Of a stretch of DNA of 64,000 nucleotides, positions 3,174 through 28,614 are shown piece after piece. This stretch comes from Komarekiella atlantica HA4396-MV6 (lineage in GTDB: Bacteria; Cyanobacteriota; Cyanobacteriia; Cyanobacteriales; Nostocaceae). Both the position numbers and the translations under genes were made by a program. The stretch spans positions 62,001-126,000 of the forward strand of contig JAHHHK010000020.1 in assembly GCA_019359395.1 (NCBI GenBank), written 5' to 3'. Within the stretch, counting starts at the first letter, position 1. Every line of letters begins with the position of its first letter. The notes under the pieces are model-generated. The model saw only the letters and a program-made list of their open reading frames with translations, was not told where the DNA came from and searched no databases.

Positions 3174-4166
3174 ATGACTAGCAATTTAGAAGCTCAACTT
3201 TTAGCACTGCGGCAAGAAGGAGAACAAGCGATCGCAGCCGCCGATACCCTAGAACGCCTAGAAGAACTCAGAGTTAGCTATCTGGGTAAAAAGGGGCAAC
3301 TAGGGGCACTTTTGCGAAGTATGGGGCAGATGAGCGCAGAGGAACGACCGAAAATTGGAGCGATCGCCAACACAGTCAAAGAGTCCCTGCAAACTAGTTT
3401 AGACCAGCAACGCGCCGCCCTAGAAGCCGCGCAAATCGAAGCACAGCTAGAAGCTGAAACTTTAGATGTGACTATGCCAGGCATTTACCGCCCTCAAGGT
3501 CGCATCCATCCCCTCAATGGCATTATTGACCGGGCGCTAGATATCTTTGTCGGTATGGGCTATACGGTAGCTCAAGGGCCAGAAATGGAAACAGATTATT
3601 ATAATTTCGAGGCTCTCAATACCCCGCCTGACCACCCCGCCCGTGATATGCAGGATACTTTCTACCTGCCAGATGGTAATCTCCTACGTACTCATACTTC
3701 ATCAGTTCAAATTCGCTACATGGAAAGAGAGGAGCCACCCATCCGGGTTGTTGCTCCAGGGCGAGTTTATCGGCGAGATAATGTAGACGCCACTCACTCA
3801 GCGGTTTTCCATCAAATAGAACTTTTAGCAATTGACGAGGGATTAACTTTTACCGACCTCAAAGGCACAATTAAGGTATTTTTACAAGCAATATTTGGCG
3901 ATTTGCCTATTCGTTTCCGTGCCAGTTATTTCCCCTTTACTGAACCCTCGGCTGAGGTTGATTTGCAGTGGAATGGGCGTTGGTTGGAGGTGATGGGTTG
4001 CGGTATGGTCGATCCAAATGTACTTAAATCTGTGGGTTATGACCCAGAAGTTTATACCGGGTTTGCCGCCGGTTTTGGTGTAGAACGCTTTGCAATGGTG
4101 TTACACCAAATTGATGATATTCGTCGGTTGTATGCTAGCGATTTGCGGTTTTTGCAGCAATTTTAA
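3174..4166 (+). CDS. pheS: Phenylalanine-tRNA ligase alpha subunit
   Basis: PheS carries the catalytic class II core of the tetrameric enzyme that charges tRNA-Phe. The protein has 330 residues, the normal size. The N-terminal coiled coil (about residues 1-90, [16 protein letters not shown] and the following helix) precedes the catalytic domain. Class II motif 2 is seen as [20 protein letters not shown] and motif 3 as [16 protein letters not shown]. The ATG at 3174 follows a heptamer array by 6 bp and opens with [10 protein letters not shown], as I remember for Nostoc relatives. The pheT partner is not adjacent, which is common in cyanobacteria. Confidence 0.96.
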
Positions 4167-4373
4167 GGAAGCGATCGCTTTAAATAATCAGGCATTTACT
4201 AAATCTCTTGCAAAAATCTATTGGATGAAAATGGAACCACAGATAAATACCGATTAATAATATCAATTCTTAAAAAGAAGGCTACATATTTAATCTGGCT
4301 TGCCAAATTAAATTTTACTTTCTTAATAGAAATTAGGAATTGTATTATCTGTGGTTCTAAATATAATTGGCTG

Positions 4374-25518: not shown

Positions 25519-25692
25519 ACTAGTCATACTAGTTGAGCAAAATAGAAAAATTATGTGATGATTTGTACAATTTTACACATTACAGATGAATAGACCACAG
25601 TAGGGTGGGCATTGTAATGCCCACCCCACAAGCCTTGTTCATGTAACCGCGAATTCTATTCATCTAGGCTATATTCAGAATCGAATAATAAC

Positions 25693-25822
25693 GGCGGGTG
25701 CGGGGGTTGAACCCGCGAATCCCCAAAATGGTGGAGATGTTACCGATAACCCTAAATTCCTGGCTGACGCCACGCTTCGCGAACGTCCCCGAAAGGCAAG
25801 TTGCGAATCAGGATAACCCGCC
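25693..25822 (-). ncRNA. Y RNA-like (YrlA-type) tRNA-like RNA, copy downstream of rsr
   Basis: The minus strand starts GGCGGGT and ends ACCCGCC, a perfect 7-bp acceptor-like stem. The last 24 bases form a perfect T arm (GCGGG TTCAACC CCCGC) joined to the acceptor. There is no D arm: the 5' acceptor strand runs straight into TATCCTGATTC, similar to the ATATCCTTGTTC of the first upstream copy. CTTGCC then begins the Y-type helix, but the helix is enlarged by a GC-rich insertion (TTCGCGAAGCG palindrome) of the dispersed-repeat type. The conserved block AGGGTTATCG is intact. It lies 48 bp after the Ro60 gene on the same strand. It may be a diverged or decaying member; a tRNA finder would call it pseudogene-like. 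Confidence 0.68.
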
Positions 25823-25870
25823 ATGAAGTATGAAGGATAAAGTTTTTCATTCTTTATCCTTCAGCAATGT

Positions 25871-27472
25871 CTACAACTCATCCGTTGCCAGCATTTGGAT
25901 AATGCGAGGCGTTCCCGGATCAAACCCCGCCAAATCCCAAGACAGCGAATCTTGAGGATCTACCAGCGTAATCTGATAAGGTGCAAGGGTGACATACACC
26001 GCCTTAACATTGGGATTCACCTTTTTGCGGTACTGTGCCAGCGCTTGACTTGGATGCTTATAACCAGCCCAGCTTTCTGAGTCAGTCCAGAAGCACACTA
26101 CATCCGCCTTGAACTTGTTCTTAATCATCCAATCGTAAGCCACAGACGCATCTGTTCCACCGAAGTTTTGGTTGCTAGCTTTGCGAACAGCTGAACTAAA
26201 ACTATCTTTAGCAGTGATACCCAATTCACGAAATTCGGTAGCAAAGCCGCGAATCATATAGTTTTTCTCTGCTTTTGCTGTTACCAGTGCCATTGTGGTG
26301 GCAATTTCACAACAACTTAGTCCCATATCTGCAACCAAGCTACCCATAGAACCAGAAACATCCACCGCGTGCATAAACACTTTACCTGTGGGTTGCACAA
26401 CATCGAAAGACAGTTCAACCGCCTTTTCTAAGATGTCCACAATGCGAGGAACTGGCTTCCAAGTTTTCTGGCTGCGTCCTAATCTACCCCCAGATTGGTA
26501 AGTTTTGAGTGCTTTCAAAACATCAATCGGATGGATACGACCTTTACGCAGATGTTCTTTATTATTAAGAACTGCTTCCACACGCAGTAAATTTGCGTTT
26601 TCATCAGTTCGCAACACACCCAAGTCAGTCAATGAACCCAGGTTTCGCAACATTGCACCTATTGGCATTTCCTGAAACAGCAATTGCCAAGCTTGCTTAT
26701 CCATTTTGCCCACGGGTGCAGCCATTTCGTGGGTTAGGCGTCCTTGTGAAATAGCTTCATGAGTTTGGGTGGGATTCCGCTTTAGCCACTCATACCACCA
26801 AATCTGAGCCAATGCTTGAGAGGGTATTTCTGCTGGCAATTCTTCCCAGCTTTTGACTACCCACTCAAATAGTTGTCGGTGATTTTCTGTAGGTGGTTTG
26901 ACATGGAACAACCGCAATGCATCCCGGTGGGAAAAGCCTTGACGTTGTTGATATTTCAATAGCTGATAAGCCAAACCCTTAACATCTTCTCGTGAGAGCC
27001 AAGTTTTACCAGCTTCCCGCACCACTTTACCAAATCCCCGTAGAGATTTAGTGTAGTTTAGCCATTCGTAGAAGTGGCTACCAGTGCGGACAACTTGCCC
27101 AAAGATTTCACCAAATGCCTGTTTTGCTTCTGGTGTTTCACCCATCGACAGTAGAACTAAAGCCAAGATTGGCGCACTGTTGTTGATGGCGCGGCCATCG
27201 CTAGCATACAGAATTTCTTCGGCTACACGGCTAGGATTTTCGGCAACAGCTTGTTTGATAACTGCCACAAAGTCCTCAGTTAATTCTTGCTTACCAGCAT
27301 AGTAAGTACTTTTTGCTGTACCAATCAATAAACAACGGCGCAGCATTTTCCAAATGCCAGCATCAAACATCCAGCCACCGGAACGCCCCTGAATCATCTC
27401 TGCTTCTCGTCCGGGGATAGGCTGAGACTGTGGTGTAGCTGTCTTATTTTTAGTGAAAAAATTATAATTCAT
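25871..27472 (-). CDS. rsr: Ro60 orthologue (Rsr), TROVE and vWA domains
   Basis: A 533-residue Ro60 protein. Residues about 15-350 form the TROVE ring of HEAT-like helices that holds misfolded and Y RNAs (LIGTAKSTYYAGKQELTED, YTKSLRGFGKVVREAGKTW, HRDALRLFHVKPP, AQIWWYEWLK). The C-terminal vWA domain has a complete metal-ion site: MHAVDVSGSMGSL (DxSxS), FGGTDASVAY (Thr) and FWTDSE (Asp). In Deinococcus and Salmonella, Rsr works with Y RNAs and the exonuclease PNPase in RNA decay and stress survival. Here four tRNA-like RNAs flank it on its strand, three upstream and one downstream. ATG 27472 has a GGGAG ribosome-binding site 7 bp upstream, within a hairpin. Confidence 0.9.
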   Translation of the reverse strand: MNYNFFTKNKTATPQSQPIPGREAEMIQGRSGGWMFDAGIWKMLRRCLLIGTAKSTYYAGKQELTEDFVAVIKQAVAENPSRVAEEILYASDGRAINNSAPILALVLLSMGETPEAKQAFGEIFGQVVRTGSHFYEWLNYTKSLRGFGKVVREAGKTWLSREDVKGLAYQLLKYQQRQGFSHRDALRLFHVKPPTENHRQLFEWVVKSWEELPAEIPSQALAQIWWYEWLKRNPTQTHEAISQGRLTHEMAAPVGKMDKQAWQLLFQEMPIGAMLRNLGSLTDLGVLRTDENANLLRVEAVLNNKEHLRKGRIHPIDVLKALKTYQSGGRLGRSQKTWKPVPRIVDILEKAVELSFDVVQPTGKVFMHAVDVSGSMGSLVADMGLSCCEIATTMALVTAKAEKNYMIRGFATEFRELGITAKDSFSSAVRKASNQNFGGTDASVAYDWMIKNKFKADVVCFWTDSESWAGYKHPSQALAQYRKKVNPNVKAVYVTLAPYQITLVDPQDSLSWDLAGFDPGTPRIIQMLATDEL

Positions 27473-27502
27473 GGCTTCATCTCCCGGCCCTTGTGGGCAA
27501 AA
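27473..27502 (-). promoter_or_regulatory. Y-helix-like hairpin overlapping the rsr ribosome-binding site
   Basis: On the minus strand, TTGCCC, a four-base ACAA loop and GGGC form a short stem that runs on into CGGGAGATGAAGCC before the rsr ATG. The sequence TTGCCC-loop-GGGCCG is nearly the same as the helix of the Y-like RNA at 27829-27956 (TTGCCC-GCAA-GGGCCG). The GGGAG after the stem is the likely ribosome-binding site. Rsr could bind its own leader here and limit translation. The similarity is direct; the regulation is inference. Confidence 0.5.
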
Positions 27503-27510
27503 ATGGAAGG

Positions 27511-27633
27511 TGGCGGAGCAGGATTTGAACTTGCGACCTCCCGATTAACAGTCGATAACCCTAATTCTTCGGTCTTTTCAGACAAGGGGTGAACAAGGAT
27601 ATTTTTGGCGCTCTACCACTGAGCTATCCGCCA
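27511..27633 (-). ncRNA. Y RNA-like (YrlA-type) tRNA-like RNA, first copy upstream of rsr
   Basis: 123 nt. Acceptor TGGCGGA/TCCGCCA pairs fully; D arm GCTC AGTGGTA GAGC; T arm GCAAG TTCAAAT CCTGC with one A-C mismatch. In place of a normal anticodon arm is an insert with ATCCTTG, then ACCC-CTTGTCT-GAAA-AGACCGAAG-n-GGGT, a helix with a bulged C and a GAAA loop, and then AGGGTTATCG. CCGAAG followed seven bases later by GTTATC is the same arrangement as in the 5' Ro-binding helix of animal Y1 RNA as I remember it. It starts 39 bp upstream of the rsr start codon and could share its transcript. An Asn-like GTT triplet at the 3' side gives the alternative reading of a tRNA-Asn with a short intron, which I judge less likely. 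Confidence 0.78.
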
Positions 27634-27649
27634 CATATAAAGTTTGGTG

Positions 27650-27769
27650 TAGCAGGGCGGGATTTGAACCCGCGACCTCTCGAACCCAATCGATAACCCT
27701 CATTTGTCGGCCTTTTCAGGCAAGAGGTAAACAAGGATGTTTAGCGCTCTACCACTGAGCTACCTGCCA
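27650..27769 (-). ncRNA. Y RNA-like (YrlA-type) tRNA-like RNA, second copy
   Basis: 120 nt, 16 bp upstream of the first copy. Acceptor TGGCAGG/CCTGCTA; D arm GCTC AGTGGTA GAGC; perfect T arm GCGGG TTCAAAT CCCGC. The insert has CATCCTTGTTTACC, then the helix CTTGCCT-GAAA-AGGCCGACA and AGGGTTATCG. Compared with the first copy the helix pairs GTCT/AGAC have become GCCT/AGGC, a compensatory change that supports a conserved fold. The triplet region TTGGGTT would give a six-base, hence faulty, anticodon loop for Pro, which argues against a working tRNA. Confidence 0.8.
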
Positions 27770-27828
27770 CATGAAAAATTTGGGATTTTATGAGTTTTAA
27801 AAGATAGATATTGGCAATTAATTTGATG

Positions 27829-27956
27829 TAGCGGAGCAGGATTTTTACCTGCACCTCCAGAAGTTTGGATCAAGGATGTTTAATTATGTGCGATAACCCT
27901 CGATATGTCGGCCCTTGCGGGCAAGGTGGGCGCTCTATCATTTGAGCTATCCGCTA
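27829..27956 (-). ncRNA. Y RNA-like (YrlA-type) tRNA-like RNA, third copy with rearranged insert
   Basis: 128 nt. Acceptor TAGCGGA/TCCGCTA pairs perfectly; D arm GCTC AAATGATA GAGC; T arm GCAGG TAAAAAT CCTGC, whose loop lacks the normal TTC. The insert is in a different order: the helix CTTGCCC-GCAA-GGGCCGACA and AGGGTTATCG come first and the AAACATCCTTG block follows, whereas in the two copies nearer to rsr ATCCTTG comes first. The helix again shows compensatory change (GCCC/GGGC) and keeps a GNRA loop. This is the most upstream member of the cluster. No anticodon arm can be drawn. Confidence 0.77.
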
Positions 27957-28614
27957 CGGGTGAAAGCTAACTTCTGAATGAATATCAGCTTGTATTATTA
28001 ATGTAGTATGTATATTACTAGGTGTCAAGTGGCTGACGAGCTAATTTATTTAGATGCGGATTTAAGTCAAAAATCCAGTCACAATCAAGCAATATCTTAA
28101 ACGGATACTGCTACTCTACGGAAAGCCACTACAAGTTTGTGTGTTTTCACTTTTTAGTTTGCTCTGACATTTTGCACCAATCTCAATTAGCACCCTCACC
28201 CACACAGAACTCAAGTTCTGGGCTAATAGCCTAACTCCACTAAAGTGGACTAAAATTCAAACTCAATCTTCTAAAGAAGACTTGAGCTATAAGAGAGAAT
28301 TCATTCTCAGTCAGGCGATTGTTGGAACTGGTGCAGAATCTCAGTTTGATCCTACCCAGAATACTTCTATATGAAACTACATATTTTTGCTTTGTTTGGT
28401 TACTATCCTCAGAACCCGCTTTTTGCTTGAGAAAAAACTTTTGCCCGATCGCTAACAAATGGTAGATATGATGGAGCGTACGAAAGTTATAACACCTACT
28501 AATGCTAATTTTTGCTGGCAAATTTGCCACAACTTTGCCAAATGATACAAAAAAATGTCACAATTTTTGCCAAGATAATATTATTTCCAGAAAATTCACT
28601 TGGCAAAAATCGGC
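27957..28614. other. Intergenic region with four consecutive short hairpins
   Basis: 28205-28308 contains four perfect short palindromes in a row: CAGAACTCAAGTTCTG, TCCACTAAAGTGGA, TCTTCTAAAGAAGA (extended by CTCAA/TTGAG) and GAGAATTCATTCTC. The loops are only two or four bases. No gene is seen. The part 27957-28200 should include the promoter of the Y-like RNA cluster; no clear motif is recognised. Confidence 0.7.

Follow-up and report, generated by a model that had tools for sequence, protein, structure and literature searches.

A tandem array of tRNA-like Y RNAs with internal Y hairpins upstream of the Ro60 gene in Komarekiella atlantica and related cyanobacteria

The window, a stretch of 64,000 nucleotides of Komarekiella atlantica HA4396-MV6 (Cyanobacteriota, Nostocaceae; assembly GCA_019359395.1, contig JAHHHK010000020.1, positions 62,001 to 126,000, forward strand), contains a gene for the protein Ro60 that is accompanied by four tRNA-like Y RNAs: three are located upstream of the gene and one, lacking the D arm, downstream of it, a layout common to the relatives of this locus. 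The gene and the RNAs are listed below in window coordinates; bit scores marked R1 refer to a model that was built here from 30 copies of the main Y RNA type, copy 1 of the window being among the seeds.

25692-25822, minus strand: Y RNA copy 4, with acceptor and T arm, without D arm, with enlarged Y loop (R1 24.6 bits)
25871-27472, minus strand: Ro60 gene (TROVE and vWA domains), an open reading frame (ORF) of 533 amino acids identified by Pfam domains and solved relatives
27510-27634, minus strand: Y RNA copy 1, main type, adjoining Ro60 (R1 139.9 bits; R1 seed)
27542-27554, minus strand: inner anticodon hairpin kept in copy 1, CGA-CTGTTAA-TCG
27555-27602, minus strand: Y hairpin of copy 1, with helices ATCCT/AGGGT and GTTC/GAAT, internal loop and GTCT-GAAA-AGAC cap
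27649-27770, minus strand: Y RNA copy 2, main type; anticodon arm interrupted by the Y hairpin and with a 6-nt loop; 8-bp acceptor, D arm and T arm present (R1 129.5 bits)
27828-27957, minus strand: Y RNA copy 3, second type, with 8-bp acceptor, D arm and T arm (R1 59.2 bits)

The ORF at 25871-27472 matched the Pfam families TROVE (67.6 bits, cutoff 23) and vWA_Ro60 (127.3 bits, cutoff 27.7), and the solved chains closest to its product are Ro60/Rsr proteins (2nvo, 9nen, 1yvp); the assignment as a Ro60 orthologue, made in a first-pass annotation from the letters of the window, is thus confirmed. PADLOC gave no defence-system match for the Ro60 gene, and a defence-system label was therefore rejected. 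The metal site of a vWA domain is formed by the elements DxSxS, T and D. In the alignments to the solved relatives, the corresponding Ro60 motifs were all read (DVSGSM, FGGTD, TDSE), in agreement with the complete metal site proposed before.

The four tRNA-like RNAs were found again at the places and on the strand given by the first-pass annotation, with acceptor, D and T arms in copies 1 to 3 and acceptor and T arm only in copy 4; all four share AGGGTTATCG, and the capped helix with its compensatory changes was upheld. The annotation had also described the insert as standing in place of an anticodon arm, which is incorrect for copies 1 and 2: in this main type the arm is interrupted rather than replaced, with the Y hairpin lying between positions 28 and 29 and the remainder of the arm kept. 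The anticodon loop of copy 1 (CTGTTAA) is as in tRNA-Asn GUU. In the second type, comprising copy 3 and its relatives, the Y-helix strand pairs with a partner 3' instead of 5' of GTTATC (CCTTGAT in copy 3) and reads as the same Y helix in opposite order. By eye, a repeat-like palindrome was noticed within the Y loop of copy 4 (25766-25790); the downstream copies of the loci L004, L016 and L069 likewise measure 130 nt, the other listed ones 103-112 nt. With default filters the Rfam tRNA model was above cutoff for copy 2 (46.1 bits); with permissive filters copies 2 and 3 passed (46.1 and 35.5 bits) and copy 1 was partially matched (20.6 bits). ARAGORN called none of the four copies a tRNA, and none of 41 full-length main-type RNAs. 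No further Y RNA copies were found with R1 in the K. atlantica genome, its 28 matches comprising the four copies of the window, 23 of tRNA length and one other (contig C67, 20.5 bits) without a Y motif by eye.

The comparison included 80 related Ro60 loci, all of them cyanobacterial (81 with the window). According to a motif scan for GTTATC, a T arm and acceptor pairing (at least 6 of 7 pairs), one to six tRNA-like Y RNAs are present in 79 of the 80 loci, only L061 having none; the scan gave 294 matches, of which 18 longer than 150 nt were dropped, and among the remaining 276 some are false and situated inside genes. With GGTTATC and a length filter, zero to five upstream copies per locus were counted, with none in three of 81 loci (L016, L054, L061); R1, for which the best 300 of 332 matches in the loci were evaluated, does detect upstream copies in L054. 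A downstream copy is present in 50 of 81 loci. In consequence, the presence of four copies around one gene, which the first-pass annotation had regarded as unusual, is ordinary for this clade. Among the relatives, some tRNA bodies appear Leu-, Ser- or Gln-like by eye. On plasmid pAQ7 of Picosynechococcus PCC 7002 (L173), three tRNA-frame Y RNAs were observed directly upstream of Ro60 at 2541-2947; their R1 scores are 94.8, 61.7 and 48.8 bits.

The structure of the main type was drawn by hand on an alignment of 30 diverse copies, including copy 1 of the window. Its 36 pairs are formed in 95% of the cells versus 41-52% after sliding, and 23 pairs are changed on both sides versus 14.5 after shuffling; of five covariation measures, four were reached by none of 500 shuffles and the fifth by one of 500. 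The acceptor comprises 8 bp: the additional pair G-1:C73, which was not a condition of the scan, is formed in 30/30 aligned copies (GC 23, CG 3, UA 2, AU 1, UG 1) and holds in 140 of 144 copies. Likewise not demanded by the scan, pairs of the anticodon stem covary in the alignment (CG 17/UA 9; CG 10/AU 9).

The bacterial Y RNA YrlA is described as a tRNA mimic whose ends lie within the Y stem (PMC8394870) and its tRNA part as a circular permutation of tRNA (ARTEMIS, PMC11472068). The anticipated match to the YrlA model did not emerge: the best match of RF02553 in the window attains 29.8 bits (cutoff 69), at 27710-27576, and spans only the junction of copy 2 and copy 1; a junction match of the same type is found in PCC 7002 (L173:2614-2744, 31 bits). 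In 146 genomes of the phylum RF02553 was never above cutoff, weak matches occurring in 31 of them and in 6 of 14 control genomes. A perfect 8-bp acceptor is formed in 97 of 100 cases within units versus 6 of 50 between tandem neighbours (50 neighbour pairs), whereas the Y cap stem pairs in 98/100 within units and in 48/50 between neighbours and, pairing equally in both ways, cannot decide the frame. Membership in YrlA was therefore rejected: the ends predicted from acceptor pairing are not those of an RNA that ends in the Y stem and has a loop-closed acceptor. By their pairing, the Y RNAs of these loci represent a circular permutation of YrlA with an internal Y hairpin and a normally ordered tRNA part, since the open ends are at the acceptor, which in YrlA is loop-closed, and since a loop caps the Y stem, in which YrlA ends.

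The anticodon loop has 7 nt in 36 of 41 non-redundant copies; among these 36, U33 is present in 35 and a purine at position 37 in 32, and 20 different triplets occur. In a set of 58 Ro60-adjacent copies, which come from related species and were selected by R1, the three columns of highest variability are positions 34-36 (1.8, 1.8 and 1.65 bits; median 0.13, counted over columns filled in more than 80% of rows), and the 7-nt loops possess U33 and purine 37 in 57/57 each. G37 accompanies G36 in 6/6 loops and other bases in 1/30 (table 6, 0; 1, 29; p=3.6e-6); in the genuine tRNAs of the K. atlantica genome it accompanies G36 in 9/9 and is otherwise found in 0/36 (table 9, 0; 0, 36; duplicates included). 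All loops differ from each other in 52/52 sources with at least two main-type copies, and at least two triplets are present among the 7-nt loops of 42 of the 52, a count made without control. Eight of 42 distinct loops are identical to a genuine loop of the K. atlantica genome, and 30 of 42 fit YUNNNRN. The nearest-tRNA comparison did not match the body to the anticodon; copy 1 was most similar to tRNA-Val GAC (57 matches).

R1, Ro60 and RtcB were searched for in 386 genomes, a long R1 match being defined by at least 110 nt and more than 58 bits. Among the R1 matches listed, which applies to all counts of Y-positive genomes given here, at least 33 genomes have a long match and all 33 are within the 36 genomes with strong Ro60, whereas no long match is among those listed for the other 350 of the 386 genomes, which lack strong Ro60 (genomes with weak PF25045 were kept out of the 36: G360, G018, G032, G224, G120, G004). 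The strong-Ro60 genomes without a listed long match (G127, G021, G041) encode Ro60 proteins outside the cyanobacterial clade. RtcB is present in 129 of the 386 genomes but in 33/33 Y-positive ones; by stratum, Y-positive genomes versus the rest gave 21/21 versus 15/22, 8/8 versus 35/54 and 3/3 versus 5/78 (Fisher p 0.005, 0.043 and 0.0007; Cochran-Mantel-Haenszel z 4.75). In K. atlantica, RtcB is located on another contig than the Y array; by eye its gene (L198:574-2373, contig C75) is seemingly interrupted by an intein-like insertion.

Upstream of the array and of Ro60, the following elements were distinguished:

27481-27498, minus strand: Ro60 mRNA leader hairpin GCCC-ACAA-GGGC, then CGGGAG (Shine-Dalgarno-like); Y-cap-like
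27992-28009, minus strand: ATACTACATTAATAATAC, a predicted TrcR operator that overlaps the -10 box TACATT (degenerate-operator match)
28023-28028, minus strand: -35 element TTGACA of the Y-array promoter (TTGACA-17-TACATT, 10 of 12)

The sigma-70 promoter scan as a whole was not above chance (8 found versus 5.7 expected). According to PMC10272220, TrcR of Anabaena is a repressor that is released by translation-blocking antibiotics, acts through ATACTACACTTGTATTAC and represses rtcB and a 26-tRNA operon; a slipin gene is among those raised in the trcR deletion, and TROVE has no mention in the article. In 62 of 72 loci the exact TrcR core ATACTACA is found within the 400 nt that precede the first detected Y RNA, versus 1.2% of control windows (the other 9 of the 81 loci were omitted because their upstream DNA was too short or because no upstream copy was detected in them); a core with one mismatch is present in 8 other loci and one with two mismatches in 2. 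Upstream of 50/72 arrays the arrangement TTGACR-N12-14-ATACTACA is found on the array strand, and by this spacing the core overlaps the -10 box. In the 7.78-Mb K. atlantica genome the degenerate operator occurs twice, versus 0 in the backwards control; the second site has the exact published letters and precedes, by 32 nt, an ORF of 111 amino acids that is probably trcR. For the window and most arrays, the Y RNAs are hence predicted to be under TrcR repression and to be switched on upon translation stress. In Chlorogloeopsis fritschii PCC 9212, erythromycin is reported to raise TROVE and SPFH transcripts dramatically (PMC6424891), and in a far-red coculture TROVE (+4.5 log2) and RtcB (+3.5) are listed among the top genes (PMC11423583); Y RNAs and the exact TrcR core are present in C. 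fritschii PCC 6912 (L051), the induction data coming from PCC 9212.

A hairpin of the form TT-G(NNN)-loop-(NNN)C-YG, mostly GCCY-GNAA-RGGC, is present in 77 of 81 Ro60 leaders, where it ends 10-15 nt ahead of the Ro60 start; in the remaining 4 the closing C is replaced by A. Its stems are GCCC/GGGC (42), GCCT/AGGC (30), GCCT/GGGC (3) and GTCC/GGGC (2), and the background frequency is 391 in 1.48 Mb, i.e. 0.012 per 45 nt. As the hairpin of the window abuts GGGAG, binding of Ro60 at this site could shut off its own translation.

The explanation favored for these loci, to which we assign a probability of roughly 70%, is a stress-induced, tRNA-shaped Ro60-Y particle that would act in tRNA/rRNA quality control beside RtcB; the reading is supported by the comparison of architecture, frame, kept anticodon arm, Ro60/RtcB co-occurrence, conserved operator and leader hairpin, from which the function of the particle is inferred. 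One promoter of this cyanobacterial-type Ro60-Y operon would give rise to a single transcript with the Y RNA array followed by Ro60; TrcR is predicted to repress the promoter and blocked translation to release it. Each RNA has a normally ordered tRNA-like body (8-bp acceptor, D, anticodon and T arms); main-type RNAs carry a Ro60-type Y hairpin that branches off the 5' strand of the anticodon stem and has its Y stem closed by a short, mostly GNRA-like loop. The units would be excised by RNases at the acceptor ends, where ACCA is encoded in some genes. Ro60 would then bind the Y hairpin, whereas the tRNA body with its variable anticodon loop may offer a tRNA surface to tRNA-acting enzymes; candidates are anticodon nucleases, for which the RNA would serve as decoy, or enzymes of modification, CCA addition, degradation or repair. 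Under translational stress the particle may thus work beside RtcB, and Ro60 would probably bind the Y-cap-like leader hairpin and repress its own translation when Y RNA is short. The specialised RNA-sorting system suggested in the first-pass annotation found no specific support, the evidence pointing to translational stress and tRNA repair instead.

Several observations weigh against this explanation. Copy 1 folds no better than shuffles and copy 2 only modestly better (z -0.62 and -1.80); the folding check proposed earlier was better for copies 3 and 4 (-3.27 and -2.96), modest for copy 2 and not convincing for copy 1, and folding energy taken by itself is weak evidence. The high acceptor pairing is in part a product of the scan, which demanded at least 6 of 7 pairs, and the three inner anticodon pairs are paired in only 80% of the aligned cells; the kinship of the 58 copies and their choice by R1 count in the same direction. 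The arm cannot be essential to all of the RNAs, since copies 3 and 4 and their like lack it. Since a part of the phylum commonly possesses RtcB, genome size or kinship may partly account for its association. The exact TrcR core is absent from 10/72 arrays; it was found neither in front of the PCC 7002 array (L173) nor in the promoter of the K. atlantica rtcB gene (one-mismatch sites 6 versus 3.4 expected), and the ribbon-helix-helix (RHH) similarity of the 111-residue ORF is weak, below the Pfam RHH cutoffs.

With respect to the role of the tRNA body, two possibilities have to be compared. It may be a mere scaffold and RNase handle for the Y hairpin, with the arm as a leftover and the triplet drifting neutrally; this is a possibility of some substance, though an unlikely one on balance. 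The triplet is just somewhat more variable than an unpaired linker column (1.65-1.8 versus 1.53), second-type and D-armless copies manage without an anticodon arm, and 12 of the 42 distinct loops are outside YUNNNRN; in contrast, the conservation of U33, of purine 37 and of the G36-G37 coupling exceeds the needs of a simple hairpin. The scaffold constitutes a strong rival to the second, more doubtful possibility that the Y RNAs are decoy or sentinel tRNAs. Held by Ro60 and excluded from translation by the 8-bp acceptor, they would expose their anticodon as bait to anticodon-cleaving nucleases in translational stress or phage attack, while RtcB would repair the cell's own tRNAs. This proposal builds on the hypervariable triplet, on the difference between the loops of one cell and on what has been suggested for YrlA (PMC7790460, in which YrlA itself was not cleaved).

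It is improbable that the loci are tRNA genes with a Y-bearing intron, from which the hairpin would be excised and the halves joined by RtcB to yield stress tRNAs with a displayed anticodon. The loops follow the tRNA rules, RtcB accompanies all 33 Y-positive genomes, and in 27 of 41 copies the anticodon stem becomes a perfect 5-bp helix once the insert is removed (71 nt are left in copy 1). The same number is obtained, however, when the excision is slid by -1 (+1: 13; 2 or more: 0), and shuffled partners reach an average of 21 and a maximum of 26 perfect stems. ARAGORN called 37/41 spliced forms but also 25-38/41 forms in which the excision had been moved by 1 to 6 nt, so that these tests hardly discriminate. 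Furthermore, the 8-bp acceptor with its G-1:C73 pair is unlike that of ordinary tRNAs, second-type and D-armless copies would by eye yield no tRNA, and K. atlantica encodes an intact tRNA-Asn GUU and intact tRNA-Pro.

Processing of the array in the YrlA frame, i.e. of mature RNAs that extend from one Y loop to the next with the tRNAs as a tandem accident, is still less credible: the junction matches of RF02553 in the window and in PCC 7002 and the cap stem, which pairs as well between neighbours as within units, would agree with it, but it was rejected because acceptor pairing stays within units, and the downstream copies stand alone behind Ro60 without a neighbour for pairing. That the copies are degenerate tRNA genes or functionless tRNA-derived repeats, as the palindrome of copy 4 and the folding of copy 1 might suggest, can practically be dismissed in view of the strong covariation, the position next to Ro60 in 79/80 loci and the confinement of the long R1 matches listed to strong-Ro60 genomes.

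Returning to the tRNA-shaped Ro60-Y particle and its genomic surroundings, a conserved partner gene was rejected: the 36 sampled loci share only Ro60, and the next clusters occur in 18. A protein cluster with CCA-adding-enzyme domains is present in 5 of the 36; in L048, L055 and L063 Pfam assignments place its gene directly upstream of the Y array and in the same orientation, and in L057 it is probably next to the array too. In L080 the array-adjacent gene is protease-like, which places the CCA-adding enzyme further off.

Other orders of the parts were encountered beside Ro60 elsewhere. In the phages Cashline and Myrna and in a Bosea plasmid the YrlA order was recognized by eye; R1 gave 42.0 bits in Cashline over two YrlA-order units, the mirror image of the junction effect. 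G044, a metagenome-assembled genome from outside the class (7% contamination), combines both orders in one tRNA cluster with Ro60 (R1 67.6 and 50.9 bits; RF02553 38.4 bits, below cutoff): Y RNAs of both frames were seen at 1295-1420, 2128-2256 and 3420-3521 of L178, minus strand, among more than 20 tRNAs. In a tree of 22 proteins all tRNA-frame Ro60s of the class (14/14) fall into a single clade (100/100), with G044 outside. In the Nostocaceae genome G127 (L179, 4500-5500, minus strand) Ro60 belongs to a different clade and is accompanied by a tRNA cluster, and RNAs of YrlA order with the acceptor closed by a short loop were seen there by eye. In G041, short animal-like Y hairpins are situated beside Ro60 (L181, about 4030-4240, minus strand), and an RtcB gene lies about 2.5 kb off.

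One of these hairpins of G041 obtained 37.4 bits with RF01656 (cutoff 38), the Rfam model of nematode stem-bulge RNAs, animal Y RNAs being represented by RF00019. The CCGA...GTTATC strand and the interrupted helix are features also of animal Y RNAs; in contrast to these, which are not known to have a tRNA body, the Y stem has a short closing loop here and its open end leads into a tRNA. With tRNAs, the RNAs have in common the order of acceptor, D, anticodon and T arms, a tRNA-like anticodon loop and sometimes an encoded ACCA end, and they differ by the 8-bp acceptor, the insertion of a hairpin some 50 nt long into the anticodon stem and the failure of ARAGORN to call any full-length RNA. YrlA (RF02553; Salmonella 6CU1), as described in PMC8394870, shares the location beside Ro60/Rsr, the Y stem with D, T and acceptor arms and the mimicry of tRNA; the RNAs of the present loci differ in ending at the 8-bp acceptor, in the internal position of the Y hairpin and in the anticodon arm of the main type. 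The Salmonella rsr-yrlBA-rtcBA repair operon likewise combines Ro60, tRNA-like Y RNA, a link to RtcB and stress induction (PMC7790460), whereas in K. atlantica RtcB is on another contig and the predicted regulator is TrcR, not RtcR/sigma54. In the literature searched, outside of which the main specialist papers lie, no report of such cyanobacterial Y RNAs was found; priority is not claimed.

According to this comparison of sequences, the loci would present a second circular permutation of a bacterial Y RNA, in which the tRNA mimic appears as an open, normally ordered tRNA, and the YrlA-like unit that tandem copies create at their junction would offer a concrete route between the two forms. A named repressor would link cyanobacterial Ro60 to RtcB and translational stress, and the role of bacterial Ro60-Y particles would become testable in two laboratory-grown organisms, Chlorogloeopsis fritschii, for which induction data exist, and Picosynechococcus PCC 7002, a common laboratory strain.

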